Shown here: in pieces, positions 1 through 20,751 of the stretch
Layout: each line of letters opens with the position of its first letter
How positions within the stretch are numbered: position 1 is the first letter of the stretch
Origin: a virus
DNA: 37,725 nt
Reading direction: 5' to 3' (one strand)
Virus record (IMG/VR): IMGVR_UViG_3300010354_000230
Coordinates: 1-37,725 of that record
Notes under the pieces: generated by a model
The model's database searches: none
Seen by the model: only the letters and a program-made list of their open reading frames with translations
Told to the model about the DNA's origin: nothing
Program-made: the position numbers and the translations under genes

Positions 1-1044
1 CATAATCTTAAATAGGTCCTGCATTGTTTGATTGTTCTTAAGAGTAGTTTGAGTAACTTGACTTGGTATTAGATCAATGTTTAATTTGAATTCATCGCCT
101 TTAGCAAAGTCAGCTTTTTCAATGCCTAAATCGTTAAGGCCTTTTCCTCTTCTTACAATATAGTCATTAAATATTGATGAAACTAATTCAAGATATCTTT
201 CATCGGGCGATGTACTTAGTAATTCATTACCTCTTAGTCCCCGCTCTTCTATAAATGCAAGTATATCAAGTAAAAGAATTTCATTAATATCAGCAGGTAT
301 CTTTTTATGGTCAATCGGCTCTCTATAGCTTAATAGATTTATTGTATAAGGATCAATAAGCTTAGCAGATATTGATTGTGAACCTCCTGGTTTATAAAAC
401 TTAAAAACAATTGATTCGATTGGTTTACTTAGGTCATCCTGTAAAATTGTTGAGGTTAACTTTGGATTAAGAACCGTTATAAGATACTCTGCAAATGAAG
501 ATGTTTTGAAAATTTCCAGTTGGTCTTCAATTGGGGTTGAAATAAACTTTTTAATTTTTTCTTTTTGATTATCCGTCAAATAACCCTTAAATATTGGCAA
601 CAGCGGAGTAACACCTAATGCATTTGCCCAGTCTTCAATAACTCTAGGATCTTCGATTATCTTAGTAATCTTACCATTTGAATTCTTTACTTGGATATGA
701 GTCAATACCAAGTTATTCTTAGGTAATTTATCATACTTAATTACACCAGGTTCATTATGTACAAAATACTGAAAACAAAATCTCCAGGTATTAGGAATAG
801 AATCAAAAAAAGAAGATGTAGAATCTTTAATGTAGGTAATTGGCTTTTCATAATATACCATTAAAGTTCTATCAATTAAATTAATTGGCTTATCATTTGA
901 TTTAAAGAATTTTAAAGACTGTCCAGATTTTTCAAATGAAAATGCAGAACCGGATAACTTTTCAGTTACCACCAAATAGTCCTTAAATAGGTCATTGACA
1001 AAATCTTGGCCTAATTCTTTATAAATCTTAGCTAATTCTTTCAT
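1..1044 (-). CDS. Nucleotidyltransferase (RNA/DNA ligase-like) fold protein, 3' end cut off by window
   Basis: The reading frame is open from an ATG at 1044 to the left edge, giving 348 codons with the C-terminus missing. Residues 26-33 read VTEKLSGS, in the position and context of ligase motif I (KxDG), but with Ser where Asp is expected. Around residues 80-105 the RFCFQYF segment followed by IKYDKLPKNNLVLTHI resembles the motif III region of phage ligase-like proteins. Later PIESIVFKFYK resembles motif IV/V (EGIVF...K). I infer a divergent member of the covalent nucleotidyltransferase superfamily; the family link comes from motif order, not from a search. The gene follows the 1199-2470 gene after a terminator and has its own promoter-like element at 1067-1077. 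It could be a real enzyme with an altered motif I, or a non-catalytic binding protein. Codon use looks like that of its neighbours. Confidence 0.7.
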   Translation of the reverse strand, partial: MKELAKIYKELGQDFVNDLFKDYLVVTEKLSGSAFSFEKSGQSLKFFKSNDKPINLIDRTLMVYYEKPITYIKDSTSSFFDSIPNTWRFCFQYFVHNEPGVIKYDKLPKNNLVLTHIQVKNSNGKITKIIEDPRVIEDWANALGVTPLLPIFKGYLTDNQKEKIKKFISTPIEDQLEIFKTSSFAEYLITVLNPKLTSTILQDDLSKPIESIVFKFYKPGGSQSISAKLIDPYTINLLSYREPIDHKKIPADINEILLLDILAFIEERGLRGNELLSTSPDERYLELVSSIFNDYIVRRGKGLNDLGIEKADFAKGDEFKLNIDLIPSQVTQTTLKNNQTMQDLFKIM

Positions 1045-1198: not shown

Positions 1199-2470
1199 CT
1201 ATCTACCGTATTTAATTATACCGAGTAATTGATTGAGTGCAGCAAAGGTTCCGGTTAGTTTATAAAGTTTGCCATTGTATCTAAATACAATGCCTTCGGT
1301 AGGATAGATTGAATTTATTCCGCCAATTCTATCAAGTCTGGCCAATTCATCTTCAACCTTTTTAACCTGATCAGCTCCACCGGTTTTTCTAATTTTATCT
1401 GCCTCAGCTTGTAGATATGCCCGAAGTCTTTCGGTTTCTCCGGTTGGATCGGCTGCAAGAAAGTTACTTGCATTCTTAAGAATGACAGATCCTAATTCCA
1501 AAAACAGATCTTCAAAAGGCCTGATGTTTTCTTTATACTTTTTCTTAACATCCTCCTTATCAAATTTCTTAATCTTTGCAGATTCTTCTGGTGTTAATAC
1601 TTTATCTAACGATCTCATATTTAAAGTATTCTTATCATCATAGGCCCATCTTCTTAAAAGACCTTCTTTTACATCTTGTGGAGCAGAAGAAAATTCTTTA
1701 TCAATCAATTCTCTCCACCACATTTCATGATATCTTGATACTTCATCACCATCATTAAGATTATACCTTTTTTGTAATTCAATTACCTTATTAATGAACT
1801 TTTGTTTATTTTCACTGAAGTCCATGTCCTGTTGTAATTGTATAATTCTAGGTGGTATAATCTTAAAAGTTTTTCCTAAATCAGCTTGGACTTTGGATAA
1901 GATAGCAGGTATCTCCTTTGCAGGTCTAGCCTCAGTACCAACAACATTGCCGTTACCGTCAGTTTTAGTTATATTATGAAACTGAATAACATCAGTATCA
2001 TAATTGATAACATTAGGATTCTTAGAATAGATAAGTTCCATGTTCATGAAATTCTTACCGTTTGCAAAGGTTTCATCCTGAACTTTTTGTGGTAATCTAA
2101 TTAAAAGATCAGCAAGATCTTGCGCAGCAAATTGGAATGTATCTCGTACCGATGCACTTGGATGATCTGCAAACTTTTGCTTAAAATCAGAAAGAGACAT
2201 TGGATTAATACTCTCCCCTTTATTTCTTGCAAATTTTACTTCTCCATCTTGAATAGTAGCCCATACATTTTGGCCATCAGTTTTTTCGGTAGGATCTTCT
2301 TCAAAGTTTAATTCACCACGAAGCCCAGCATCAATGATACTTTTAAAGTCTCCAAAAGTTAAACCCTTATCATCAAACGGATGATTCATGTGGCCAGCAG
2401 CGCCACCTTCTAAAAGTAATGGCTGGCTTTTATCGGCCAGCCATTGTTCAAAAAGCTTAATATATTTCAT
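1199..2470 (-). CDS. Ligase-like nucleotidyltransferase with capsid-targeting leader
   Basis: 423 aa. Seen: motif I KTDG at 63-66 (Lys63 would be the nucleotide-accepting residue), an ARNKG segment at 81-85 matching the usual RxxxG motif, a NMELIY motif III-like strand at 143-148, and EGIVF at 392-396 followed by Lys401/Lys404 for motifs IV and V. This motif order is that of the covalent nucleotidyltransferases (DNA and RNA ligases, capping enzymes); similar proteins with GHMxHPF before the KxDG region occur in T4-like phages. The first 21 residues (MKYIKLFEQW...LLLE) look like a T4 capsid-targeting leader ending at a perfect prohead-protease site LLE/G, so the mature enzyme would begin at Gly22. 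I infer packaging in the head. The substrate (nick, RNA end or protein) cannot be told. A terminator follows the gene. Confidence 0.8.
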   Translation of the reverse strand: MKYIKLFEQWLADKSQPLLLEGGAAGHMNHPFDDKGLTFGDFKSIIDAGLRGELNFEEDPTEKTDGQNVWATIQDGEVKFARNKGESINPMSLSDFKQKFADHPSASVRDTFQFAAQDLADLLIRLPQKVQDETFANGKNFMNMELIYSKNPNVINYDTDVIQFHNITKTDGNGNVVGTEARPAKEIPAILSKVQADLGKTFKIIPPRIIQLQQDMDFSENKQKFINKVIELQKRYNLNDGDEVSRYHEMWWRELIDKEFSSAPQDVKEGLLRRWAYDDKNTLNMRSLDKVLTPEESAKIKKFDKEDVKKKYKENIRPFEDLFLELGSVILKNASNFLAADPTGETERLRAYLQAEADKIRKTGGADQVKKVEDELARLDRIGGINSIYPTEGIVFRYNGKLYKLTGTFAALNQLLGIIKYGR

Positions 2471-2479
2471 GTATTAAAA

Positions 2480-3835
2480 TTACTTTCCCATTGAGGATTG
2501 TAAAGCCCCAACCATTGCACCATAGTCACCTTTGTACTTAGACTTAAGGCCATCGATAACTTCCTTAGCTTTTGCTTCATCAAATTTATCGCCATGTGCA
2601 GATTTCAAAATTTCAGTTGCGTATTCTTCAAAATCAGAATCAGACTTAATTTCTTTTTCTGAAATCTTACCTTCTTTTACAACAACAGTACCTTGTGTGG
2701 CTGCTTCATCTTTTGCAGTTTTAGGTTCTTCAGTAATTTTTTGATCTTTAGTTACTAATTCTTCGCCTTCTTCTTCCTTCTTTTCAGTAGGTTCTCCAGT
2801 CTTTACTAATTCTGCAGCAATTCCTGCGGCAGTTTTAGAACCATCTCCTTTTACAACTGGTATTTCAATTCCATTTTGATCTTCTTCATTTAAGTATGAC
2901 TCAGAAACAAACTGTGAGAATGATCTTATTGAAGATACAGAACGAGAAACCGTTTCCTCAACTTCTTCTGTTTCTTCAGTCTCATCGGTTTCAATAGAAT
3001 CAGCTACAGGAACCGCTTCATCGTCATCTTCAGCATCATCTTGATAAGTAACCTTTTTGTTAATGTTAATATCCTCTTCTTTAATAAAATCTTCAAAGGT
3101 CATTATTCTACGTTTAGCAACCGGATCAGTTCCTGATTTTTCATCATCGCCTTCAGCAGGTACCTCTGCGGTAATTTCCTGATCTTTAGTTACTAATTTT
3201 TCGCCATCCTTTTCGCTATCTTCTTTAGGTTCACCTAATTTAACAGTCTTATCTTCAATTTCTTCGGCGGCGTCTTCTTCAACTTCAGCACCAACCAGAT
3301 TACCACTTGTATCAAATTTAAGTTCTAAACCATTACTTAGGTATACTTCAAAACCTTCTTCATCGCTTTCAGCCTTAGTTACCTTTGCATCAGTATATTT
3401 TGAAGCAACATAATCAAGAATCCCTTTAGGTAATGTATTAGGATCTACATAATCCTCATCTTTATCTTCGGCACCGGTTTCAGGAGCAGGAGCAGCAATT
3501 TCTTCGTCACCTTCAGCAACCTCACCAGTTGCACCAACTTCTTTGTCTTCTTCTTTTTCCCCTTCTTTATCTTCTAAAGATTTAGGTTCGCCCATATCTT
3601 TAATTTCATCCTCGATATCTTCAGCATCATCTTCACTGATATCATTCTTTGGATTGAATTCTTTTAATAAGGCCTCTAATTTTGAAAGAAGAGATTTTTC
3701 CTTTTTGATTTCGTCAATGTTATTATAGCCTAGCTTTTGAACTAATTCCGCTAAAGCTTCTTGGCTAAGATTTGCTGATTCAAGGATAGAAAGACTACCA
3801 TTAGAAGCAGCTGAAAACTTTTTAATAGGCTTCAT
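2480..3835 (-). CDS. Acidic head-core-like protein with three capsid-targeting-like motifs
   Basis: 451 aa, extremely rich in Glu and Asp, mostly low complexity. The N-terminus MKPIKKF...SILE/S matches a leader plus T4 prohead-protease site (I17-L18-E19 before S20). Two similar short motifs recur inside: MTFEDFIKEED at 245-255 and RSFSQFVSE at 304-312. A unit of about 26 residues is repeated: GEPK...GEKLVTKDQEIT at 201-222 and GEPT...GEELVTKDQKIT at 347-368, with a weaker copy near 82-97. Residues about 396-451 look like a compact helical domain. In T4 the acidic scaffold protein gp22 and other core proteins are built and cleaved in this way, so a prohead core or internal head protein is a reasonable inference. 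It is not a clear gp22 homologue. A promoter-like element lies 25 nt upstream. The next gene, ten bases on, has the same kind of leader. Confidence 0.75.
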   Translation of the reverse strand: MKPIKKFSAASNGSLSILESANLSQEALAELVQKLGYNNIDEIKKEKSLLSKLEALLKEFNPKNDISEDDAEDIEDEIKDMGEPKSLEDKEGEKEEDKEVGATGEVAEGDEEIAAPAPETGAEDKDEDYVDPNTLPKGILDYVASKYTDAKVTKAESDEEGFEVYLSNGLELKFDTSGNLVGAEVEEDAAEEIEDKTVKLGEPKEDSEKDGEKLVTKDQEITAEVPAEGDDEKSGTDPVAKRRIMTFEDFIKEEDININKKVTYQDDAEDDDEAVPVADSIETDETEETEEVEETVSRSVSSIRSFSQFVSESYLNEEDQNGIEIPVVKGDGSKTAAGIAAELVKTGEPTEKKEEEGEELVTKDQKITEEPKTAKDEAATQGTVVVKEGKISEKEIKSDSDFEEYATEILKSAHGDKFDEAKAKEVIDGLKSKYKGDYGAMVGALQSSMGK

Positions 3836-3860
3836 TTGTATTTGATTTTTTTGTTCTTTT

Positions 3861-3871
3861 TTTATATATCC
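3861..3871 (-). promoter_or_regulatory. Late-promoter-like element GGATATATAAA
   Basis: The minus strand reads GGATATATAAA, one mismatch from the 11-mer GAATATATAAA found at three other sites, with 25 nt to the ATG at 3835. It lies between uvsW and the acidic head-core-like gene, where expression would plausibly change from replication to head genes. Confidence 0.35.
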
Positions 3872-3896
3872 ATGACATTATGAAAAGATATTACAT

Positions 3897-5399
3897 TTAG
3901 AATTTAATGGACTGTACTTCAAATGGAAATTTCTCTTCCTTATAGATTTTTCTGCGTTCCATTCCATGCCTGTATATGTAATTCATCCAGTCATGATCAT
4001 CTGTCTTATACCTAATATCATCAATAAAATCATAAATTTTGACAATATCCTTTGCCACATGTTTACGGAGACCACGACCGATGGATTGGCGAATGATTAC
4101 TTCTGACTTAAAAGATTCTGTAAAAAAGATGTTATGTATATTTTTTATAGAGATACCGGTTGAAAAGGTACCGTATGATGCAACAATGATAACATCATTA
4201 TTCTTTTCCATTCTTGACTTAAATTCTTCGCGAATATCGGCATTAACGGATCCATCCACATAATATATTTTCTTATCAGTTATCTCTCGCAGCTTTTTGT
4301 ATATTTTTTCTCCGTATGCTATTTTATGAAAAAGAACCAGAGAATTTGAATTTGACTTTTTAATTACATTACAGATAAAGTCTAGTCTTTTTTCATTTTC
4401 ATTAATAAAGTTTTGTTCTAATGAAAATAGTTTTTGACGATCATACGGATTTTTAGATAGTTCTGAAAACGCCTCTTTTTGCGAGTCAGTTGCATAATCC
4501 ATTAAAATCTGTAATACTTTACATTTTGCAATATGGCCTTCGTCTTGTAAATAATTTGCTTTAACCTGAGTTACTAAAGGACCCATTGCCGACATTAGAC
4601 TTAAACGATCAACGGTACCTCTTTTAGGAATAGTACCGCTTAACCCAAATCTATAATCACAATGCCAGCACATATCCATTATCTTTTGAATTGATGTTGC
4701 CTTAGCCTTATGTGTTTCATCTACAAATACAGCATCAAATTGGGTAAAGTAATCTTCTTCATATTTAACTAAAGACTGGTATGTACCAATAACTATGTTA
4801 GAACTTTTTCTTAATTTTACACCGGCATATATTTGTTGGATTCTTATAGGAACCCTGCTCTTATTATATTGTTCAAAATCACCAGTGGCCTGCACAACTA
4901 AACTTACATTAGGAACAATCATTAAAATCTTTTTCTTACCTAACTGCTCCATCATATATGCAACAACCATAAATGATATTAAGGTTTTACCGGCAGATGT
5001 TGCTAATTCTGCTAAACATCTTCGATATCTTAATATCTTAAATGCAGCATCAACCTGATAATCTCTAGGTTTAATATCTGAATCTTTAAAGAAATCATCT
5101 ACCCATGCAGTAAAAGATTCAATAGTAATACTTTGATCAAATATATTAGTAATGCCATTCATGGTAAGAGGAAGATTATATTCTTTACAGATATCAATGA
5201 CCTCTTTCCATAATCCACCTGGAATCTTATTCTTCTTAATAAAAGATATATTACCGTCCCACACCTTCTTCTTAACCAACGGATGAAATCTCCACCCGTC
5301 AATCTTTTTTGTAAGACTGCTTTTTAGCTGTTCATATTCCAATTCGGTACATGAATCAATTACTAAAAACTTTTTATTATCTGATAATGATAGTTCCAT
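3897..5399 (-). CDS. uvsW: UvsW-like recombination DNA/RNA helicase (SF2)
   Basis: 500 aa, the usual length for T4 UvsW (about 500). Residues 1-105 form the small N-terminal domain before the helicase core. Core motifs: PRDYQ at 111-115 (Q-like motif), Walker A ATSAGKT at 133-139, motif II DETH at 227-230 (a DExH variant), motif III SGT at 254-256, and motif VI QSIGRGLR at 438-445. UvsW unwinds R-loops and D-loops and drives branch migration and fork regression, helping T4-like phages shift from origin-dependent to recombination-dependent replication. The start ATG overlaps the stop of the uvsY-like gene by one base (TAATG), so translation is probably coupled. The uvsW-uvsY neighbourhood is also seen in T4. 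Confidence 0.93.
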   Translation of the reverse strand: MELSLSDNKKFLVIDSCTELEYEQLKSSLTKKIDGWRFHPLVKKKVWDGNISFIKKNKIPGGLWKEVIDICKEYNLPLTMNGITNIFDQSITIESFTAWVDDFFKDSDIKPRDYQVDAAFKILRYRRCLAELATSAGKTLISFMVVAYMMEQLGKKKILMIVPNVSLVVQATGDFEQYNKSRVPIRIQQIYAGVKLRKSSNIVIGTYQSLVKYEEDYFTQFDAVFVDETHKAKATSIQKIMDMCWHCDYRFGLSGTIPKRGTVDRLSLMSAMGPLVTQVKANYLQDEGHIAKCKVLQILMDYATDSQKEAFSELSKNPYDRQKLFSLEQNFINENEKRLDFICNVIKKSNSNSLVLFHKIAYGEKIYKKLREITDKKIYYVDGSVNADIREEFKSRMEKNNDVIIVASYGTFSTGISIKNIHNIFFTESFKSEVIIRQSIGRGLRKHVAKDIVKIYDFIDDIRYKTDDHDWMNYIYRHGMERRKIYKEEKFPFEVQSIKF

Positions 5400-5845
5400 T
5401 ATTGTTCATCTTCGAGTCTTATGCGATTACGAATTGCAAATGCAAGATTATCTAATGTCTTAATACATTCATAGTAATAATCTACGTGGGATTGCAGCAT
5501 ATCTATTTGTGTTCTTAATGAACTAAGTTCTGCTTTAATAAATTGATGTTTTTCGCCGCTCGTTAATTTAACATCATAATTTAATGTATATTCTCTGTAC
5601 TGAGATCTATAATATTTTTCCCATGTTGCATTTCTCTTAAATATCATTGTCTTAAAATCAGTAACTTTATCTAACAAGATTTGTCTATATGATAACATGT
5701 TTACTTGACATTCAGCAAGCTCATTCATATTTTTGATCTTAAGAACTAGTTCATTTATTTTATTTTTCCAATCAATCCTGTCACTTGTTAGTCTAGCCTC
5801 AAGTTCCTCGTTAGCCTGTTTTATTTGTGTATCGTCAAATGCCAT
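5399..5845 (-). CDS. uvsY: UvsY-like recombination mediator
   Basis: 148 aa, close to T4 UvsY (137 aa), nearly all helical and highly charged. The second half has the arrangement I associate with UvsY: a Lys/Tyr-rich segment, then SGEKHQFIKAELSSLRTQID (97-116) and a final helix with IRNRIRLEDE. UvsY loads the UvsX recombinase on gp32-coated single-stranded DNA. The assignment rests on this pattern and on position immediately before uvsW and in the same run as gp32- and primase-like genes. The start is preceded by AAGGA with 8-nt spacing, one of the few Shine-Dalgarno-like sites here. The gene overlaps both neighbours by one base (TAATG at both ends). Another helical accessory protein cannot be excluded. 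Confidence 0.7.
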   Translation of the reverse strand: MAFDDTQIKQANEELEARLTSDRIDWKNKINELVLKIKNMNELAECQVNMLSYRQILLDKVTDFKTMIFKRNATWEKYYRSQYREYTLNYDVKLTSGEKHQFIKAELSSLRTQIDMLQSHVDYYYECIKTLDNLAFAIRNRIRLEDEQ

Positions 5846-6066
5846 TAGAATATTCCTTTATCGTTATTAATGCGTTTTGCCATTTTTATTTTAGGCTGAA
5901 ACTTTTTCTTAGGTTGATCTACTTTAATATCTTTTTTATCATGGGATAGTTTACTTTTAGTAAACGAAGTAAATAGCCTGATTCTTTTTTGGCTATCTTC
6001 ATAATCTTCATAAAAGTTTTCTATCTGCTCGTTCACAAACGATTCATATTTTTTTATTTCAATCAT
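5845..6066 (-). CDS. Small basic protein with capsid-targeting-like N-terminus
   Basis: 73 aa. The N-terminus MIEIKKYESFVNEQ resembles the MKxIKxFExF leaders of the other suspected head proteins here, but no [L/I]-x-E-[A/G/S] site follows. From about residue 27 the protein is Lys-rich (FTKSKLSHDKKDIK, then KKKFQPKIKMAKR), which suggests nucleic acid binding. It overlaps the primase stop by four bases (ATGA) and uvsY by one base, so it is translated with replication genes. It may be a small internal head protein or an accessory factor for primase or recombination. I do not recognise the family. Confidence 0.6.
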   Translation of the reverse strand: MIEIKKYESFVNEQIENFYEDYEDSQKRIRLFTSFTKSKLSHDKKDIKVDQPKKKFQPKIKMAKRINNDKGIF

Positions 6067-7133
6067 ATAAAAATAATATCTAAATGATTGTTTGTAAAAT
6101 ATCTATCAATGCTTCTTAGACACCCAGTTCGGTTTTCGTATTCATATTTTACAAGATCATTTAAGTCCTTAACTTTTTTACTAGGTATTGAATAATCTTT
6201 TAGAAACTTATCCCACATAAATACCGTTTGTCCAGATTTAAGTTTCTCAATCATTCTAGTCTTTCCTTCAATATCATTATCAAAGAAATACCTTGCGGTT
6301 GGTATTTCATTAAATTCAAGTATTTGTTTTTTAACACCAGTAAGACCTATTGAATTGGTCATAAACATTGCATCTATAGGACCTTCAAATATTGTAAAAT
6401 CTCTGCTTAGGTCTGCTGTTAATATTCCAAATAACATAGATATCTTATTAAGATTATCCATGTCTTCTTCTGATACATTCAAAGGCTTTTTTAGTCTATC
6501 ATAAATTCTTTGAATGTTCCATGTTTTATATTTAGGTCCTTTACCTTCAAGATCTCTTGTTTGAAATCCTATTACTTTACCATCCGGCGTTAGGTTAAAA
6601 ACAAAGAGTTCTTTTTTACGAGGATCATATCCAAATTGATTAGTTTTATGTTGTAATAATCTACTCTTAAGATATGGATATGCTCTATATGTTAATGAAT
6701 TTATTGGATATACATTAAACCCAATCGCCAATTCATCAAAGGTTAATGCAAGTTCTTTAATTTTATCAAAGAGATAAAAATCAAGAGATTCACCTAAAGA
6801 AAAAGATCTTTTATTTTCTTTTATGTAATTGAGTACTTCAACGCGATCCTCTCCTTCAAAGTTAGAGTTAAAGTCCTTAAGAAATGTATCTAATGATACG
6901 TGAGCAGAACAATTATAACAATGAACATAGAGATCGTTCCAATAAAGGTTACCTCTTTTCTTATTAGGTGAAGAAGTTGAATCTCCACAATAAGGGCATG
7001 CAAAGTTCAATCTGTCTCTGCCTTCTAAAACCCTTTTCTTTTCAGGATGAGAATGGCTATTATGAAGAACTCGGACTATTTTATCAATAATCCGAGTCTT
7101 CATTTCAGAAGATATCATAACTTCTGTAGCCAT
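6063..7133 (-). CDS. 61: DNA primase, gp61/DnaG type
   Basis: 356 aa (T4 gp61 is 342). An N-terminal zinc-ribbon is clear: CPYC at 46-49 and CYNC at 72-75. The Toprim catalytic core has FEGPIDA at 247-253 (Glu248) and the acidic motif FFDNDIEGK at 281-289 (Asp283, Asp285). Together these define a bacterial/T4-type primase that makes RNA primers for lagging-strand synthesis with the replicative helicase, which is not in this window. The gene starts four bases after the stop of the gp32-like gene and overlaps the next gene by four bases (ATGA), so ssDNA-binding protein, primase, small protein, UvsY and UvsW appear to form one coupled series. Confidence 0.93.
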   Translation of the reverse strand: MATEVMISSEMKTRIIDKIVRVLHNSHSHPEKKRVLEGRDRLNFACPYCGDSTSSPNKKRGNLYWNDLYVHCYNCSAHVSLDTFLKDFNSNFEGEDRVEVLNYIKENKRSFSLGESLDFYLFDKIKELALTFDELAIGFNVYPINSLTYRAYPYLKSRLLQHKTNQFGYDPRKKELFVFNLTPDGKVIGFQTRDLEGKGPKYKTWNIQRIYDRLKKPLNVSEEDMDNLNKISMLFGILTADLSRDFTIFEGPIDAMFMTNSIGLTGVKKQILEFNEIPTARYFFDNDIEGKTRMIEKLKSGQTVFMWDKFLKDYSIPSKKVKDLNDLVKYEYENRTGCLRSIDRYFTNNHLDIIFI

Positions 7134-7137
7134 AGGA

Positions 7138-8046
7138 TTAGAGATCTAATCCATTAATGAAATCATCGAAATCATCAGCCTTTTCCGATGTAGATGTTTG
7201 TTCATCAAGATCTAAATCATCCTCTTTAGGTGCAGCCTTAGGGGCCGGTTTAGCGGCAGCCTTTGGTGCAGATTTAGTTATTGTTTCAATTGAACTACCC
7301 GGAGAAGAATACTGTGAAAGGATGTTCATTACTTTATTTCTCTGTTCATCATTCCAAGGTTTGTAATCAAAGTTAGCCAGATCCGGAGCATCCTTAAGAT
7401 AATCCAAAATCATTTTACGACCTTCGTTAGTATCGGTTACGTTTTCACCGTCAATGGTCATAGCCGAACGAGATCCTTGGAATTTACATGAATCATAATT
7501 AGGATAACCTCCTTTCTTGGAAAGAACCAATTCAAAGTTTTTACCTTCAAACGGATCAAACACCTGAGTAGGTTCATCGAATTGAGGATTCAATTCTTCA
7601 TCAATCTTAGCCTTAATCTTATATCCAAATTTGAATACTTTGATTTGACCTTCAAGATCGCGATTTTGTGGATCCTTAACGATTTGAACCAATGCATAGA
7701 ATACTTCCCTACGCTTTAGCCCTTCAGACATTTTTTTATCTACGGCAGATTCCGAATTACGTAGTTTAAAGAACATATCCTGTACCGGACATTTCTCACC
7801 TACAGTAGAAGGAGAATCAGCATAGAAACCATTTCCGTCTCGGTCTTCTAACCAATAAACGAATTTACGAACGAAAGGTTTGCGGGGATTTTTGATATTA
7901 GGTAAGAACCTAAGTAAAGAACGGTAAGTACCGTCTTGCCCTTGATCGGGCTTTGGAGAGTAAAGATCGCTGCCTCCACCTGAAGGGCGATCTCCTGTGT
8001 CGAGGTCATTAACACTCACACTGAAAATGTCGAATTCATTTGCCAT
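7138..8046 (-). CDS. 32: gp32-like single-stranded DNA-binding protein
   Basis: 302 aa, same size as T4 gp32 (301). Residues 43-99 (LLRFLPN...PSTVGEKCPVQDMF) align with the T4 gp32 core around its zinc site, and VFYALVQIVKDPQNRDLEGQ (115-134) matches the T4 ILVVKDP segment. A flexible Ala/Pro/Lys linker is followed by an acidic tail ending DDFDDFINGLDL, the usual partner-binding tail. The zinc ligands are not kept: T4 CPVC reads CPVQ here, and the other Cys and His positions appear replaced. The T4 N-terminal LAST motif (KRKST) is not seen. The protein coats ssDNA in replication and recombination with primase, UvsY and UvsW, encoded directly downstream. A long leader precedes it. Confidence 0.9.
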   Translation of the reverse strand: MANEFDIFSVSVNDLDTGDRPSGGGSDLYSPKPDQGQDGTYRSLLRFLPNIKNPRKPFVRKFVYWLEDRDGNGFYADSPSTVGEKCPVQDMFFKLRNSESAVDKKMSEGLKRREVFYALVQIVKDPQNRDLEGQIKVFKFGYKIKAKIDEELNPQFDEPTQVFDPFEGKNFELVLSKKGGYPNYDSCKFQGSRSAMTIDGENVTDTNEGRKMILDYLKDAPDLANFDYKPWNDEQRNKVMNILSQYSSPGSSIETITKSAPKAAAKPAPKAAPKEDDLDLDEQTSTSEKADDFDDFINGLDL

Positions 8047-8190
8047 TTTAGTTGCCTTTTTTTAAGTTTTGTTTTTAATTTAGTTAAAAGCATAACTTAG
8101 CATTGCCTATTTACGTGCCCGGGATTGCCAATAAAAACTCTGCCTTGTTATTGCCAGTTAAAAGGTCCTAATAAATTAGTTCCTTTGTTA
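8047..8190 (-). promoter_or_regulatory. Leader of the gp32-like gene with repeated GGCAA
   Basis: The 144 nt between the promoter-like element and the ATG hold no gene. On the minus strand the motif GGCA occurs six times (near 8151, 8141, 8125, 8116, 8103 and 8052), four of them as GGCAA. The last 45 nt before the start are almost only A, U and C. T4 gp32 represses its own mRNA by binding an unstructured A/U-rich stretch next to a 5' pseudoknot. A similar autoregulatory leader is plausible, but I could not fold a convincing pseudoknot by eye. Confidence 0.35.
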
Positions 8191-8201
8191 TTTATATATT
8201 C
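8191..8201 (-). promoter_or_regulatory. Promoter-like element GAATATATAAA / TATAAATA upstream of gp32
   Basis: The minus strand reads GTGAATATATAAATAAC. It contains the shared 11-mer GAATATATAAA and, overlapping it at 8189-8196, an exact T4 late-promoter box TATAAATA. It lies 144 nt before the gp32-like start. Confidence 0.5.
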
Positions 8202-8217
8202 ACAATAGTACTTAGTT

Positions 8218-8505
8218 TCAGATGATTTGAAGATCATTATCTTCAACTATTGCTACCACATCAATATCTCTTATACTGTAAATTTTAGTATCTTCAAACT
8301 TAAACTCTGTACCGGCAAGATCATGAAACATTAATCTGCACCCAACTTTAATGTCCTCATCCTTTACATCTGGACCAACTGATATGACAGTTCCTATGTA
8401 AGGTGGAGCATTATGCCCTTCTTTTTTAGGAACATAAATTAATCCAATTTTTTCAGGATACTCATCTTTTTTAAGAAAAATTCTATTTTTTATTGCAGTT
8501 AACAT
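8218..8505 (-). CDS. GroES-type co-chaperonin (functional counterpart of T4 gp31)
   Basis: 95 aa, the length of bacterial GroES (97). The Cpn10 pattern is clear along the whole protein: an N-terminal AIKNRIFLKKDE strand, a mobile-loop region GLIYVPKKEGHNAPPY at 21-36 in which LIYV would be the GroEL-binding hydrophobic segment, IGTVISVGP at 37-45, KVGCRLMFHDLAGTEF, and IRDIDVVAIVED at the end. Such proteins cap host GroEL; T4 gp31 does this to fold the major capsid protein gp23. This gene looks closer to cellular GroES than to the divergent T4 gp31. A promoter-like element lies upstream at 8531-8541. Confidence 0.92.
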   Translation of the reverse strand: MLTAIKNRIFLKKDEYPEKIGLIYVPKKEGHNAPPYIGTVISVGPDVKDEDIKVGCRLMFHDLAGTEFKFEDTKIYSIRDIDVVAIVEDNDLQII

Positions 8506-8530
8506 AAAAAGCTGAAACTAAGTTTATTTG

Positions 8531-8541
8531 TCTATATATAA
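8531..8541 (-). promoter_or_regulatory. TATA-like promoter element upstream of co-chaperonin gene
   Basis: The minus strand reads TTATATATAGA, with 25 nt to the ATG at 8505. It is a looser relative of the GAATATATAAA element. In sequence this AT-rich the support is mainly its position. Confidence 0.25.
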
Positions 8542-8571
8542 AATTTAACTGATTGATTGAAAGAATAGTAT

Positions 8572-9228
8572 TTATTGGTTAGCGGTTTGAGATTTAAGTA
8601 TAAAGTATGCATCTACAAGATCATCAATAGGTTTTGGAATTTTTTCACTAAAGTCTTTTCCTTGTACATATTTCCATAATTCTGTCATTCTCAAGTCTTT
8701 ATCATCTAGGACATCATCTTGAAATGCTTTAACCATAAAATGTTTATTTGCATTTCCTTTCCCTGCTAATTTTTTAACGTGAGATGGTTGAAAGATTGAT
8801 ATCTTTTCAGAACCATAAATTTCTAAAAGTCTTGATCTTAAAAAGGAATTGTATTGAACGATGTCTATAAATGAATTACCTGTTGATCCGTATGAAAACC
8901 CTTCAAGAGATATATGAACATTACTGGTTCCAAAGAATGTAACCAATGAATTTGTAATTAGACTGGTTATGGATCTACAGTCTTCTAATTTTTCGCGTTC
9001 TCTAACTAAAAATGTATCGGCAGAAAGATTACGAAAATAAGGAAATCCTAAGATCCCTTTTTTATCTATAAGTTCTTTATGTACTTCAAATGCTTTTGGC
9101 ATTTTCTTAACATCATCCCAGATCCTATCTCCAAAATTAAAGAAAGATATAAATGTATAATCTCCGCCTGTATTCTTTACACATACGGCTGGACTATTTA
9201 GAGAAAAATCAATTCCTATTCTTATCAC
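8572..9228 (-). CDS. RuvC-fold Holliday junction resolvase-like nuclease
   Basis: 218 aa. RNase H/RuvC-fold landmarks are present in order: RIGIDFSLNSP at the N-terminus (catalytic Asp7), ISLEGFSYGS at 106-115 (Glu109), PSHVKKLAGKGNANK at 148-162 (Lys-rich substrate region), and PIDDLVDAYF at 200-209 (Asp203 and Asp206 as final acidic residues). Such enzymes cut four-way DNA junctions; in a T4-like phage this would debranch recombinational DNA before packaging, the job done in T4 by the unrelated endonuclease VII (gp49). Location beside gp32, primase, UvsY and UvsW genes fits. The start ATG is 10 bases from the stop of the preceding gene. Confidence 0.85.
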   Translation of the reverse strand: MIRIGIDFSLNSPAVCVKNTGGDYTFISFFNFGDRIWDDVKKMPKAFEVHKELIDKKGILGFPYFRNLSADTFLVREREKLEDCRSITSLITNSLVTFFGTSNVHISLEGFSYGSTGNSFIDIVQYNSFLRSRLLEIYGSEKISIFQPSHVKKLAGKGNANKHFMVKAFQDDVLDDKDLRMTELWKYVQGKDFSEKIPKPIDDLVDAYFILKSQTANQ

Positions 9229-9238
9229 AAATGTAAAA

Positions 9239-9592
9239 TTAGAGCCTCTTACCTAACACTGCACCTAATGCAGCACCAACTAAACGACTGGTTAATAAAT
9301 CATAAAGAGCACCCTTTTCAATTCCTAATACCTTACAGATGGCTTCACCTATAGATTTTCCTAATGCAAAACCAGTAAGACCTCCAAAAATTGAACCAAG
9401 TAAACCTTCGTTGACCAGTTCTTCAACAACCTCATCAAGATTTTTACCATTATTATGAGCATCTACTATTCTTTGTACTGCTTCATTAACAATAGCATTT
9501 TGTTCTTCGGTTAGTTCTGATTCATTTAAGACCTGTAACAGATCATTGGTGTCAGCTTTTGATTCGTAAATATAGTCTTTAAAAGTTTTCAT
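9239..9592 (-). CDS. Small glycine-zipper protein with T4-type capsid-targeting leader
   Basis: 117 aa. The N-terminus MKTFKDYIYESKAD closely resembles the leader of T4 internal head proteins (MKTYQEFIAEA). A perfect prohead-protease site follows: L22-N23-E24 before S25. After an acidic helical stretch, residues 63-117 are hydrophobic and full of small residues (GLLGSIFGGLTGFALGKSIG, then LVGAALGAVLGKRL) with several GxxxG spacings, as in membrane-inserting glycine zippers. I infer a head-packaged, proteolytically matured protein that could act on the host membrane during DNA entry; the alternative is a hydrophobic core protein. A promoter-like AAATATATAA element is 15 nt upstream. Confidence 0.75.
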   Translation of the reverse strand: MKTFKDYIYESKADTNDLLQVLNESELTEEQNAIVNEAVQRIVDAHNNGKNLDEVVEELVNEGLLGSIFGGLTGFALGKSIGEAICKVLGIEKGALYDLLTSRLVGAALGAVLGKRL

Positions 9593-15924: not shown

Positions 15925-18900
15925 TTATTTTTTAACTATTGTAACACTGAAGCCGAATGACTCAGAGAAACCAGTCCTTTTGTTATATATTAAGCTTAAA
16001 TCAAACGGATTCGTGTTAAGTGTTTTTGATGATACATTTTGATTTATTATTAAGCCAGCTGCAATCTTTTCTTGATCGGTCAACTCGGCTGTTGTATAAA
16101 TTGAACCAGTATTTTCTCGGGTTGATTTAACATAAAAGTCAATCTTACCTATTTTATATAAGCTTAGTATATTTAGATTAATGTAAGCATTGACATCATC
16201 ATCCAGTGTTGTAATGTCACCAAATCCAAATGCTACATTGACATATTTTTCAAACTGAGGTTTTATGTAACTAAATAAATACTCGGTTAATCTTTTTTGT
16301 ATAAACATATAGAATTGTACATACGGTATAGTTTCATTAACCATAAATGTACCGTCTGTCACGCCAGGAATATCAATAAAATCTTGTTGGTCAATAGTAG
16401 AGCGTGTAAATGTTTCTAATTTTATTTCCTGAGGTACTTTAAGATATTTAGAACCTAAGAAAGATTTCTTTTCTAACATGGATGCTGTACCTATCACAGA
16501 TTGGATCTTAGTCTTATCTATACTCTTAATAAAATAACCAGGCTCCCAGTTAGAAGAAAAAATGTAATAGTCTTTATAATCAATTCCAACTTCATTAATT
16601 AAAGGATATAGACTTAAGAATGCGCCATCAGTAGATAATTCTAATACCGTAGATGGATCTTCTTGATTTACTTTATGATAAAAATAATTCTTTAATAATC
16701 CAAAGGATTCGTGTGCACTATAAAATTGTGCATTTGCATATCTACATAAATTAAAAACTTTATACTTATACACATCATCAGGTATAGGATTACCTGTGTT
16801 CCCTGTTGTACCAGTATTTCCTGTTGTACCAGTATTTCCTGTTATGCCTGTATTTCCGGTATAATACCCATTATCAAAATCAACATCTGCATATGGGTCT
16901 CTAAAGAAAATGATATCCTTTGCCAATGGCTTAAACCAACCAGAATGTCTGGCAATTGGTGTAATGTTAGGTTTTTCTAATAATGATAAATCATAACCAA
17001 TAATATCAGTTAAGTTAAAAATTGTTGGTTTGTTTTGATCAGGAAGAATTCCCACGTAAACGGATTTAAGAATATCATCTTGTGCTCTCAATTGAATTGA
17101 AAAGGTTTGCGCAAGACTACCATCCGATGCAAGAACCTGATTTCCGTTAACATCTATTGTCTCATAAATGATATCCGGGTTTCCTAAATTAACATCATTA
17201 ATAATGTTAGCAAAACTAACGCCATCAAACGTATATGTATATCCATTAAAGCCTCCACCTATCACGGTGTACGGTATTGTCTTAAGATTACCAGTCGATG
17301 GTATCGGTGAAGGCAATGAAAAGGTAGCATTATTTTTTAATACTGTAGAAGCATATAATTCAGAATCAGATAAAATTCTTGATATTCCTTCTATTCTATA
17401 TGTATCACCCCCGATAGAAAACTCAATAGGATTAAACTGTCCGCTTACACCGATTGTAATATCTCTAATAAATCTAGTAGGATTTCCTAATGCGTCAGGA
17501 ACACCTTGTATTAAATATTGTCCAACCGACGGACTCCAAACAGAAGCAGCAAAACTTATAGCACCTTGCATTGTTGTATTTTCATACGAACCTTGTATAG
17601 GTGTACAATCAGACTGTGTTTGTATTGAACTATTAAGAGAATATAGAGAAGTTCTATCTATTGATTTACCGGTTGGATTTAAACATCCATTTTCAAATGA
17701 AACAAAGATTAGCATTACAACCGTTTTCCACTTATCATTTTTTATAAACTTAATTTGTCTTCTTGGCTTCCCTGGATCATTAGGAACCATCATAACAGAA
17801 AATCTATAATCATTAAATGCACCGTCTCGTATGTAAGATAATTTGGTTGCATTAAAATCTGGCTTATCATCACCAGATGATTTTGTTTTTGCTATGATTC
17901 TAACGCCTCTTAAAAAAGCTTCAGCAAAATTTAATTTATTACCACCAGAAAATCTACCATATCTTAGTTGTCTATCTATAAGATTAATAGTTGTTCCATT
18001 AACAAACCTATCCGCAATAAAATATTCATTAAAGAAGTTTTTATCAATTCTTTGAAATGTACCAGGTGTAGTTCCAACGGTATCGGTTGGTGCTTCATTA
18101 AAATAACTCCATGATGACTTAATGGCATCATTGGTAAAATATGAAGGGAATTCACATAAGTAATACCATTCATGACTAAATCCATCCGGTGATCTTCCGG
18201 TGTTCCAAACAGACGGTGCAAAATTATTAATACCAAAAGCAAGACTAAGATCTAATCGGTATGGATTATTCCTAACATCCGTACCATCATCATACCAACA
18301 CCACTTATTAATATAAGGTACAACTCTTGAAGCAACGGCCTGCTCCTTTAGGTAATTTTCTTCTAGTCTTTGATATTCAGATGTTACATCAACATCAGTA
18401 TTAATATCTGGATCAGAACCTTTTAATAATCCTATAAGATTTGCAAAACCACCTGCAGAATAAAAGCTTCTTATGTCAGGCCAATCACTTATACCAATAT
18501 AATCAAAAGAAGATCCAGTAACACCGGTAACACCAGTAGAAGGTGGCTCACCTTGATTGTATCTGCTGATTTCATAATTAAGTTCTCCTAAATGACTATA
18601 ACTATCATCATAAAAATCAAAATCAAAATCCCTTATTGGAAAAAACGAAAATCTACCAAATGTAGGAGTAAAGTCGGTGTACAGCGCAAGCTGTCCTGAA
18701 TTACTAATATCAATTTGACTCTCAATTAACCCTTCGGTTTTATTAGAGTTTGGATTACCTATTTGTGTACCGGTTTGACCTAAGTTTTTACTCCTATCTA
18801 AGGTGATGATAACATACTCATCTATTCCTCTATAACCAGTTTGAATACCGGATCTACTCTTAATAGGTTCTTCTAGGTAAGGAATCCAATCAGACACCGA

Positions 18901-20751
18901 AACAAACCCGCCTTTAGACTTAACATAACTTCCTTTTACAAATCTGTCTTGGTCACCAGATTTAACTTTGAGCAATGAATTCTTTGTATCCGTTCCTCCT
19001 ACAAAATTTGCATTCTGAGAAACCGCCGATGTTATTGGATAAGTTAATAAGCAGTCTTCTAATTCAGGGTATGCTATCCAAGAGACTGTGAAGTTAAGTC
19101 TATTAAATCTACTTCCGCCATATCTAGATTGAATATAAACGGTAGAGCCATTTATACTTGAATCAAAAAATTTATTTTCAGAATTGATACCGTATGTGAT
19201 TGCTTTATTAAGAGCTGATGCAATTTCTTCAGGAGTACCCGTTGGATTAAAGAAACTTTCAAATGAAGTTCCAGGACCAGATGTAAGGGATGTATTAGCA
19301 GATACTTGTCCTATTTGAATATTTCCATCATAAAAAGTTATAGATGCTCCAATAGGCACTTCTCCAAAAATATTAATATAAGAAGTGGCTTTGCCAAGCC
19401 CTGGTATTGTTTGATATGATGGGGCTACGGTATCTTGGCTTACTGAATTTACAGTAGATGTTACAGGAATATTTATTGAAGTTTGTACTGCATTAATAGG
19501 ATTGGCCATAGCAAAAGTATCAGGTTCATTATAACCTGCAAATGCTGATATGTCTAATTTTTTATCAAACAATCTTATCTGATTATTTCCCCAAACAGAT
19601 CCCTTCTTAACAGTATGAAATTGGTTATTTTTATCTTTAACATAAAAAATAGACTCAACTTCATTTACCCGACTAGGTGTAGGTAACCCAGTTACAGTCT
19701 TAACAGAAGACTGATCTAAATATAGTAATACTCCTCTTTCATTAGTAATTGTAAACGGTGTGTTTAGATATTGAGAAACTTGATCTATTGTTGAAATTTT
19801 TGGTAATTGAGTTTTTTCAATATTTTCATAAAAACCAGATCCTGATATCTTAAACGAACCTTCTTCTATTTCATTTACATAAAGTCCAAAGTATCTATTC
19901 ATGGAGTAATCATCTGCATAAGTATCGCTAAATAAAAACTCTAAGTTAATTAGGTTTGCTAATAAAACACCATTTCTTTGAAATCCTTGTGTTATGTAAT
20001 ATTCATTTTGAATAATTGATGCATCTTTAGTAATAAGATCATCATATGAATAACTGCCCGAAGAAGTAAAACCTCCATTAAAATATGATATGCCGTTCCA
20101 ACTAATAGGTTCATCCTGTCGCCAACTTATTGTTAATGGAGCCTTAGGAAATGAAGTCTGCTGTCTATATCTTCTAAGATAAGATCCTAATTTAGAGGTT
20201 TCTCTTAGATCAAAAGTTTTAATAGCAGTACAATTTTCTAAAACGAATTGAGAAAACTTTTCAGAAGTTTGAGCAAAAATATCTCCACTATCTGAGGAAT
20301 CGGCATTATAATTATTTACAGCCGATGGATTATCTAATCTAAATATTACAAAATAATTAGGTACTTGTTCATTTAACCAGAGCGGTGCAAGTATTCCCAG
20401 GTCTTCAGTATAAGACTCTGATGATATTGACCTAGTACCGTAAGAATAGAACATTTCATACTGTCCACTATATTGCGGTAAAACTGAAGTATCACCAAAT
20501 TCTTGAAATACCTGATATGCTAATTCTGTAGGAAATGAACCGTTTCTAAAAAATCTAAAAACATCTTGGTCATATGTTAATGTACCATCAATCTTAAATG
20601 CTTTAAATGATGAAGACGATAATTCCGTATTTGCACTGAATGACTCAAGATACAAACTATCCTCAGATACAATTAATTTTACATTCCCTGTTAATTTTGG
20701 ATTGGTACGTACTAAACTGTATGAAGCTTTATCAAATAAAGGCTCTGCCAT
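15925..20751 (-). CDS. Very large virion protein with Gly-X-Thr inserts
   Basis: 1608 aa, the largest gene in the window. Mostly beta-rich with many Tyr, Asn and Ser; no membrane segment. Collagen-like inserts interrupt it at about 737-749 (TGVTGVTGSS) and about 1296-1319 (TGNTGITGNTGTTGNTG), between what look like separate domains. The segment after the second insert (to 1608) is conserved-looking and mixed alpha/beta. I recognise no enzymatic motif. Its place, downstream of the gp6/gp7-type genes and before the fibre-like gene, indicates a baseplate-periphery or long-fibre component. The start follows a 71-nt gap with competing hairpins and a GAATAAATAAAA stretch. Confidence 0.6.
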   Translation of the reverse strand: MAEPLFDKASYSLVRTNPKLTGNVKLIVSEDSLYLESFSANTELSSSSFKAFKIDGTLTYDQDVFRFFRNGSFPTELAYQVFQEFGDTSVLPQYSGQYEMFYSYGTRSISSESYTEDLGILAPLWLNEQVPNYFVIFRLDNPSAVNNYNADSSDSGDIFAQTSEKFSQFVLENCTAIKTFDLRETSKLGSYLRRYRQQTSFPKAPLTISWRQDEPISWNGISYFNGGFTSSGSYSYDDLITKDASIIQNEYYITQGFQRNGVLLANLINLEFLFSDTYADDYSMNRYFGLYVNEIEEGSFKISGSGFYENIEKTQLPKISTIDQVSQYLNTPFTITNERGVLLYLDQSSVKTVTGLPTPSRVNEVESIFYVKDKNNQFHTVKKGSVWGNNQIRLFDKKLDISAFAGYNEPDTFAMANPINAVQTSINIPVTSTVNSVSQDTVAPSYQTIPGLGKATSYINIFGEVPIGASITFYDGNIQIGQVSANTSLTSGPGTSFESFFNPTGTPEEIASALNKAITYGINSENKFFDSSINGSTVYIQSRYGGSRFNRLNFTVSWIAYPELEDCLLTYPITSAVSQNANFVGGTDTKNSLLKVKSGDQDRFVKGSYVKSKGGFVSVSDWIPYLEEPIKSRSGIQTGYRGIDEYVIITLDRSKNLGQTGTQIGNPNSNKTEGLIESQIDISNSGQLALYTDFTPTFGRFSFFPIRDFDFDFYDDSYSHLGELNYEISRYNQGEPPSTGVTGVTGSSFDYIGISDWPDIRSFYSAGGFANLIGLLKGSDPDINTDVDVTSEYQRLEENYLKEQAVASRVVPYINKWCWYDDGTDVRNNPYRLDLSLAFGINNFAPSVWNTGRSPDGFSHEWYYLCEFPSYFTNDAIKSSWSYFNEAPTDTVGTTPGTFQRIDKNFFNEYFIADRFVNGTTINLIDRQLRYGRFSGGNKLNFAEAFLRGVRIIAKTKSSGDDKPDFNATKLSYIRDGAFNDYRFSVMMVPNDPGKPRRQIKFIKNDKWKTVVMLIFVSFENGCLNPTGKSIDRTSLYSLNSSIQTQSDCTPIQGSYENTTMQGAISFAASVWSPSVGQYLIQGVPDALGNPTRFIRDITIGVSGQFNPIEFSIGGDTYRIEGISRILSDSELYASTVLKNNATFSLPSPIPSTGNLKTIPYTVIGGGFNGYTYTFDGVSFANIINDVNLGNPDIIYETIDVNGNQVLASDGSLAQTFSIQLRAQDDILKSVYVGILPDQNKPTIFNLTDIIGYDLSLLEKPNITPIARHSGWFKPLAKDIIFFRDPYADVDFDNGYYTGNTGITGNTGTTGNTGTTGNTGNPIPDDVYKYKVFNLCRYANAQFYSAHESFGLLKNYFYHKVNQEDPSTVLELSTDGAFLSLYPLINEVGIDYKDYYIFSSNWEPGYFIKSIDKTKIQSVIGTASMLEKKSFLGSKYLKVPQEIKLETFTRSTIDQQDFIDIPGVTDGTFMVNETIPYVQFYMFIQKRLTEYLFSYIKPQFEKYVNVAFGFGDITTLDDDVNAYINLNILSLYKIGKIDFYVKSTRENTGSIYTTAELTDQEKIAAGLIINQNVSSKTLNTNPFDLSLIYNKRTGFSESFGFSVTIVKK
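16796..16862 (-). repeat. 18-bp tandem repeat encoding Gly-X-Thr triplets
   Basis: Two perfect 18-bp copies (16802-16819 and 16820-16837) and a third diverged one (16838-16855) lie inside the 1608-aa gene. The unit is six codons long, so gain or loss of copies keeps the frame and only changes the length of the collagen-like linker. Confidence 0.8.

Follow-up and report, generated by a model that had tools for sequence, protein, structure and literature searches.

The internal proteins (IPs) of bacteriophage T4 carry a capsid-targeting sequence (CTS), a leader of 10–19 residues with aromatics in positions 4 and 7 and an L/I-x-E site closing it or lying shortly behind, followed by mature parts that are unrelated to each other and processed by the gp21-type prohead protease. 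IPII and IPIII begin MKTYQEFIAE/A (the slash marks the cut), IPI begins MKTFKEFTSTTTPVSTITE/A with Glu in position 19, the IPI cut being read from the sequence. According to the available text of PMC9026906, mutations assign residues 4 and 7 to targeting and residues 8 and 10 to processing, and Asp in position 10 blocks processing, not targeting; CTS-like proteins occur in T2 and T6, and the CTS has already been proposed as a general loading route for various proteins in T4-like phages. Leaders of the same layout mark four proteins of a viral DNA, IMG/VR record IMGVR_UViG_3300010354_000230 (37,725 nt; the whole stretch analysed is referred to as the window), and many proteins of related phages.

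Processing of head proteins is known also in other large phages. In SPN3US and phiKZ, propeptides of head proteins are removed by the prohead protease and many of the proteins enter the cell (PMC5694885, PMC13282480). Unlike the leaders described here, several of these propeptides exceed 100 residues and the cleavage motif is A-x-E or S-x-E; in the text available from these sources, the only proteins said to begin alike are the paralogues gp53 and gp54. A literature search, which covered few subscription papers, turned up no account of such leader families outside T4 and phages close to it.

The leaders of the window and its relatives are best read as T4-type capsid-targeting leaders, cleaved by a protease of the S77 family so that the mature protein would be left in the head (probability about 0.82). 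The kind is known from the T4 CTS; the scale, the cargo and a protease fused to a repetitive scaffold are new. T4 has three known CTS proteins, and up to 30 leader genes per genome were found here, with other cargo and leader wordings specific to each lineage.

Leader proteins of the window

The window (37.7 kb) represents part of the genome of a T4-like phage. A first-pass annotation had assigned leaders to four of its products; the four minus-strand open reading frames (ORFs), encoding proteins of 423, 451, 73 and 117 aa, were confirmed (Table 1), and sit among UvsW, UvsY-like, primase, gp32 and RuvC-like genes. The leaders had been written as MKxxKxF and likened to T4. The likeness stands, the register does not: the conserved form is [KR]x[FY]xx[FYW][ILV]x[ED], and K-x-[FY]-x-x-[FYW]-[ILV]-x-E fits the T4 leader better. 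Aromatics in T4 positions 4 and 7 are present in the 423-, 73- and 117-aa proteins, and only partly in the 451-aa protein. Conserved columns of the leaders coincide with the published CTS residues 4, 7, 8 and 10. The 423-aa leader has Asp in the last conserved column (WLAD13), and is accompanied by a second site, of the L-x-E type, 8 residues further on.

An L/I-x-E site lies in or just after the leader in the 423-, 451- and 117-aa proteins, and the three sites proposed earlier, read again in the ORFs, are as announced (Table 1). Leaders often end in a site of their own, as IYE10/S in the 117-aa protein. The 73-aa protein had been described as leader only; the leader is there, the restriction is not exact, because the leader end VNE13/Q is itself an [ILV]-x-E site. 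A search for MKxxKx[FY] followed by [LI]xE[AGS] selects 3 of the 29 window genes, those for the 423-, 451- and 117-aa proteins. The coincidence of leader and site had been thought unlikely by chance, and indeed the site occurs in 3/3 proteins compared to 3.3% of random 16-aa stretches (n = 14460, same 13 start places).

A profile was built with one member from each of 39 leader families, window families and T4 being excluded from training. It ranks the four leader proteins first to fourth among the 29 window genes, from 17.8 down to 4.1 for the 451-aa protein, the next gene scoring -5.3. None of 8265 shuffled N-termini reaches 17.3, one reaches 9.6, and 25 reach 4.1, and the 451-aa start is for this reason the weakest of the four. 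By comparison, 50 kb of E. coli K-12 with 51 ORFs gave no score above -4.1. Applied to 250 T4 ORFs (from 160 of 168.9 kb), the T4-blind profile recovers IPIII and IPII (16.7) and, more weakly, IPI (7.1); Soc scores 7.3, and, gp61.1 apart (see below), the remaining ORFs score 2.3 or less.

The top T4 match, at 17.6, is gp61.1 (54 aa, MKTFKEFIKE/D; AF158101 18966–19130, minus strand, locus L245), a predicted further internal head protein.

Leader genes in related phages

In nine related contigs, taken whole, the leader motif begins 79 times within the first 20 residues of proteins, where its density in protein interiors predicts 3.4; the counts are not independent because contigs share genes. 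Motif and profile take no account of the residue that follows the leader Glu. In 44 of 72 families this residue is A, G or S, compared to 19.6% after internal [ILV]xE (n = 10747; P = 1.4e-14).

Leader genes, defined by a profile cut of 8 or by the leader wording proper to Sphingomonas phage PAU, total 194 in 12 related genomes and fragments. They number 30 in G008 and in LR756500, 29 in G005, 25 in G024, 17 in G006, 16 in PAU, 15 in G004, 12 in G002 and 9 in G001; the shorter contigs G020, G018 and G010 have 5, 3 and 3. Reversed proteins gave, at the same cut, one hit in LR756500 (677 genes), two in G024 (341 genes) and none in PAU and PTm1, so that a few of the 194 will be false. Genes were called as the longest ORF, hence some starts are placed too far upstream. 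At least 120 stretches in viral contigs match a DNA pattern for MK[HKNQ][IVM]KLFE[EQ]F-like starts. Related loci were taken from the best 80 of 570, the best 80 of 218, and 2 of 2 matches.

The proteins behind the leaders are diverse. By cargo, the 194 genes form 107 clusters, 71 of which have a single member; representatives could be scanned for 105, and these align with a mean column identity of 4% and a consensus MKxIKLFExFxNE. Wording varies with the lineage. Leaders of LR756500 (462 kb, uncultured) are mostly MKYIKEYEEF-like; starts of PAU read MKT[LI]x[QK]L[YF]E, a wording found by a looser pattern at 18 N-termini of this phage and at none in the other 13 sets. The PAU leader is one residue shorter and has no [ILV]-x-E core in the corresponding position. 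It is found on gp149, gp150, gp152, gp153 and gp154 in the head cluster, and gp154 is annotated as an internal capsid protein. Several genes with this start lie between those for portal (gp147) and capsid (gp156) in PAU (L419:7429–13735).

Pfam matches for the 105 representatives comprise 32 families, of which the 25 listed have a single member each, thus at most about 32 of the 105 match Pfam; PADLOC gave 8 models with one member each, the best being ShosT (2.6e-7). An Acb1-like 2H phosphoesterase is cargo in G004, G005, G008 and G024, a set collected by leaders, and both H-x-T motifs, HCT and HMT, are present in 4/4, as in 2/2 relatives found by a pattern requiring them. The G005 protein (G005_2454) matches PF23474 (Acb1) with 31.4 bits (cut-off 27); a relative (L324) has 23.7, below cut-off, and matches 2_5_RNA_ligase2 just over it (27.3). 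In a sequence search of PDB with this cargo, Acb1 appeared only at an E value of 0.8, and an AlphaFold2 model built from two sequences reached a predicted local distance difference test of 47, too low for use. Among seven Acb1-like relatives fetched regardless of leader, a leader-like start was seen by eye in LR756502 and LR745206, none in LR756508, Maribacter phage Molly_1 and Microbacterium phage Knox, and LR756511 and LR756504 are ambiguous. The same enzyme thus occurs with the leader in some phages and without it in others, which was counted in favour of T4-type targeting leaders. Other cargoes are a zeta-toxin-like kinase (G024), a DUF2201 metallopeptidase with a VWA domain (LR756500), an ATP-grasp protein (G001) and, below cut-off, a phosphoribosyltransferase (PAU); LRR, PNK3P, GNAT and DegT matches concern one representative each.

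Leader genes do not clearly turn over faster than others: homologues of G008 leader and other genes were found, respectively, for 21/29 vs 178/245 in G005, 13/29 vs 123/245 in G006, 11/29 vs 126/245 in G004, and 11/29 vs 164/245 in G024. A leader-like motif (KFKSFEDFIKD, then stop) is C-terminal in a protein of G006 (86745–87293) and internal to a longer one in G008 (37762–38538); another closes a 623-aa protein of G008 (42885).

Protease, scaffold and head-gene order

Of 22 related records, 8 gave an S77 protease match. So did all 15 of a further set, made up of 8 contigs showing the leader pattern and 7 records of named phages, and 5 of the 6 records in which relatives of the Acb1-like cargo occur, with 2 of these exceeding the cut-off. 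Unlike in T4, the protease is fused to a scaffold in the lineage of the window: it forms the N-terminal part of a protein of 573–666 aa, and 14-residue repeats, for example DKNIAYSEYLGENL and TKSIKYSEYIAENA, follow one another through the middle of this protein. The core of the repeats, Y-S-E-Y-I-A-E, resembles that of the T4 CTS, Y-Q-E-F-I-A-E. In four genomes the core [FY]xx[FYW][ILV]xE is 37–78 times denser in the fusion than in the other proteins. Exact core counts were reached by 0/2000 shuffles in six fusions, and by 86/2000 in LR756500, where the count is 1, a test that overstates the evidence because each repeat is treated as independent. The idea that repeats track the leader wording of each lineage was dropped, as LR756500 repeats resemble those of other phages though its leaders are worded differently; moreover, none of the top full-profile scores listed belongs to the repeats, only the core being shared.

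Genes are arranged in the order portal, leader gene (113–130 aa, 5 of 7 contigs), protease-scaffold, capsid. Pfam identifies Portal_T4 in G001, G008 and G002, and the Gp23 capsid in G001 and G008; it gave no match for the small leader proteins between portal and protease in G008 and G002. Compared to the T4 order gp20, gp67, gp68, gp21, gp22, gp23, leader genes of the relatives hold the place of gp67 and gp68. A leader gene directly follows the capsid gene in G001, none in LR756500.

The four proteins

The 423-aa protein is probably true cargo with Gly22 as mature N-terminus. An ORF was obtained from 65 of 80 loci, and the 26 distinct N-termini, picked by GGAAGHM, all keep the leader core and [LIV]xE before GG, across linkers that vary in length and sequence. 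In an alignment of 21 sequences invariance starts at E21-G22; leader and linker vary, with insertions and deletions. The motifs E62-K63-T-D-G, E392-G-I-V and K404-L-T, which we take to be the KxDG nucleotidyl-lysine motif and motifs IV and V of ligases, recall the K-x-D-G, E-G-I-V and K-L-T of ATP-dependent DNA and RNA ligases (T4 Rnl1, Rnl2 and others). The AlphaFold2 model is middling (predicted local distance difference test 69.9, predicted template modelling score 0.49). Ligases are its best fold matches, yet neither sequence nor fold matches are significant: Foldseek gave T4 Rnl1 at E 0.27, and in VIA-align ligases head the list with Z of 6.6 and below, the top one over 108 residues with a root mean square deviation of 3.3. 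Nothing better than E 0.056 was found in Pfam and PHROGs; a PDB sequence search gave a single molecule, matched by two of its chains over 77 residues (E 0.029). The fold list is no more than suggestive of a ligase-like enzyme.

The domain occurs also without leader. It lies behind a ParB-like domain, named by eye, in LR756508 (L370), and behind a domain annotated as cytidylyltransferase-like in Mel-JY01 (L249). Next to the 423-aa gene, window positions 1–1044 hold a second nucleotidyltransferase-like ORF (TEKLSGS), truncated by the end of the record, with an RNA_ligase match at E 0.053 only.

The 451-aa protein has an IPI-like layout, MKPIKKFSAASNGSLSILE/S, with Glu at 19 in both. Sixty loci yielded 32 distinct acidic ORFs upstream, of which 21 are of the 451 type with a visible N-terminus; among the other 11, one (L060) has a wrong start and 10 are other proteins. 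Both internal leader-like units are found in 19 of the 21, a single unit in the other 2. The features suggest that this is probably a core or scaffold-type prohead protein, cut at 3 or more sites, rather than cargo. T4 gp22, gp67 and gp68 similarly have several L/I-x-E sites; a sequence relation to the 451-aa protein was neither tested nor found, and gp67 and gp68 lie between portal and capsid, whereas the 451-aa gene adjoins UvsW, outside the head cluster. In the closest long relative, G020, an additional 99-aa leader gene (59838–60137), absent from the window, separates the 451-type and 423-aa genes; a 943-aa neighbour in the same contig has no Pfam match.

For the 117-aa protein, 77 of 80 loci were used, giving 45 distinct relatives. 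The best conserved part is the glycine-zipper-like segment behind N61-E62-G63, and the Lak-C1 relative has VDE/G at the further candidate site. The protein may mature at Gly63 rather than Ser25, and perhaps gives rise to a small hydrophobic peptide. The 55-residue segment (window 9242–9406), which has relatives in Lak megaphages, is possibly a small membrane-active internal peptide. The 73-aa protein is probably targeted, while its cleavage is uncertain.

Table 1. Leader proteins, predicted cleavage sites and neighbouring genes of the window
Feature	Position	Strand	Support
423-aa leader protein, ligase-superfamily-like nucleotidyltransferase after leader	1199–2470	-	K63-T64-D65-G66, E392-G393, K404-L405-T406 invariant 21/21
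Leader of 423 aa, residues 1–13, MKYIKLFEQWLAD	2432–2470	-	profile 17.3, family excluded from training
Predicted prohead-protease site L19-L20-E21/G22 of 423 aa	2405–2416	-	E21-G22-G23 invariant 21/21
451-aa acidic protein (125 D+E, 57 K+R), IPI-like start, two internal leader-like units	2480–3835	-	
Predicted site I17-L18-E19/S20 of 451 aa	3776–3787	-	[IL]xE/S in 21/21 distinct relatives with visible N-terminus
Internal leader-like unit 1 of 451 aa, M245-TFEDFIKE253	3077–3103	-	score 15.4
Internal leader-like unit 2 of 451 aa, R304-SFSQFVSE312/S	2897–2926	-	score 13.2
73-aa leader protein, MIEIKKYESFVNE13/Q	5845–6066	-	profile 17.8; core in 11/11 distinct relatives
117-aa leader protein with C-terminal glycine-zipper-like segment	9239–9592	-	Pfam glycine-zipper matches below cut-off
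Leader of 117 aa, MKTFKDYIYE10	9563–9592	-	profile 9.6, family excluded; core with E in 45/45 distinct relatives
Predicted site L22-N23-E24/S25 of 117 aa	9518–9529	-	L[NL]E[SAGE] in 43/45 distinct relatives; N23 E24 invariant 26/26
Further candidate site V60-N61-E62/G63 of 117 aa, before glycine-zipper segment 63–117	9404–9415	-	N61 E62 G63 invariant 26/26
UvsW	3897–5399		
UvsY-like	5399–5845		
Primase	6063–7133		
gp32	7138–8046		
RuvC-like resolvase	8572–9228		

Further on in the window are large ORFs judged by eye as tail genes. Collagen-like TGNTGNTG and GxTGxTG runs mark large proteins at 15925–20751 and 27492–30857, probably of the tail. A scan for sigma-70 promoters and terminators found 39 and 4, compared to 41.0 and 4.0 expected, and a related-locus search of genome contigs for a clue to the host gave 69 stretches and no relatives.

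Discussion

The leaders, the sites and their conservation, and, in relatives, the protease and the linkage to head genes have been computed; from these we infer targeting, cleavage, packaging and injection. Newly made proteins would attach to the core of the prohead through the short N-terminus and its two aromatics, which stand three residues apart. The S77 protease, gp21-like, would then cut after the Glu of [ILV]-x-E, where the leader ends or at another site slightly further along, leaving the mature protein inside the head. By analogy with T4, such head proteins would enter the host together with the DNA and act at once. The reading as targeting leaders with matching prohead-protease sites is backed by the preference for A, G or S after Glu, the presence of S77 in long relatives and of leader genes in the head cluster, and the persistence of leader and site on both sides of variable linkers.

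Several observations weigh against this interpretation. In the window record, which is a fragment, no match to S77 (gp21-like) was found (0/1), and 14 of the 22 related records mentioned above, including G003 (161 kb), are negative as well. PTm1, which has a related capsid and an S77 protease, gave no profile hits in 311 genes. The 451-aa start scores low, and Soc, an outer capsid protein, scores level with IPI. The leader Glu is not followed by A, G or S in 28 of the 72 families, and in relatives of the 73-aa protein the residue is Q or E. The leader-less fusion of Mel-JY01 retains IAE/GG, and E/GG in the 423-aa protein may for this reason partly be enzyme sequence; the fusion in LR756508 lacks IAE/GG.

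The first-pass annotation had taken the window proteins as candidates for packaging and injection. The 423-aa protein fits this set; the acidic 451-aa protein, with its three units, is more likely a core protein. Extending the latter view to all leader proteins, the leader would dock to the prohead core only, and its bearers would build the core and then be removed or degraded, few or none being delivered. The three units of the acidic 451-aa protein, the location of the relatives' leader genes at the gp67/gp68 place, and the cleavage of T4 gp22, gp67 and gp68 to peptides, reported in the available part of PMC9958956, are in line with such a role. Many proteins, however, consist of a single leader and an unrelated domain (Acb1-like, zeta-toxin-like kinase, DUF2201 metallopeptidase, ATP-grasp), and 107 clusters far exceed what a core needs, which makes this explanation unlikely.

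Still less probable is that the leader targets some other phage structure, as the replication compartment, the membrane or the tail, and that the Glu marks no protease site. The head location is, in these phages, itself deduced, and the four window genes adjoin replication and recombination genes. But the T4 CTS is matched by a profile blind to T4, A, G and S are enriched after Glu, the core is found in the tandem repeats of the protease-scaffold fusion, and leader genes are placed between portal and protease. Copying of a recombination or translation-initiation cassette at the DNA level, which the runs of neighbouring leader genes and the codon identity of PAU leaders (0.71 vs 0.51 expected from usage) might recall, can practically be set aside, given that, where leaders on different cargo share a residue, their codons agree about as often as usage predicts in the other three genomes (G008 0.62/0.57, G024 0.68/0.64, LR756500 0.71/0.77), and that the peptide ends in a protease-type motif with a biased following residue.

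Within the preferred reading of T4-type targeting leaders, a tentative proposal, possible though not favoured, is that the leader is a detachable scaffold unit: a protein with one copy would imitate a scaffold repeat, be freed by the same cut, and some 10–30 proteins plugged in this way would reach the host at time zero. If true, any protein could be plugged in, and ligase-like enzymes and enzymes resembling inhibitors of the cyclic oligonucleotide-based antiphage signalling system (anti-CBASS-like) would be among those delivered.

The localisation of proteins in the T4 scaffolding core has been called mysterious (PMC9958956, in the part available). With many natural leaders and a scaffold carrying repeats of the same core, the question becomes testable. 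The leader provides a sequence-level label for candidate virion-delivered proteins of uncultured large phages, and most of these candidates have no match to a family. The label also draws attention to Acb1-like and ligase-like enzymes and kinases whose action would precede the expression of phage genes.

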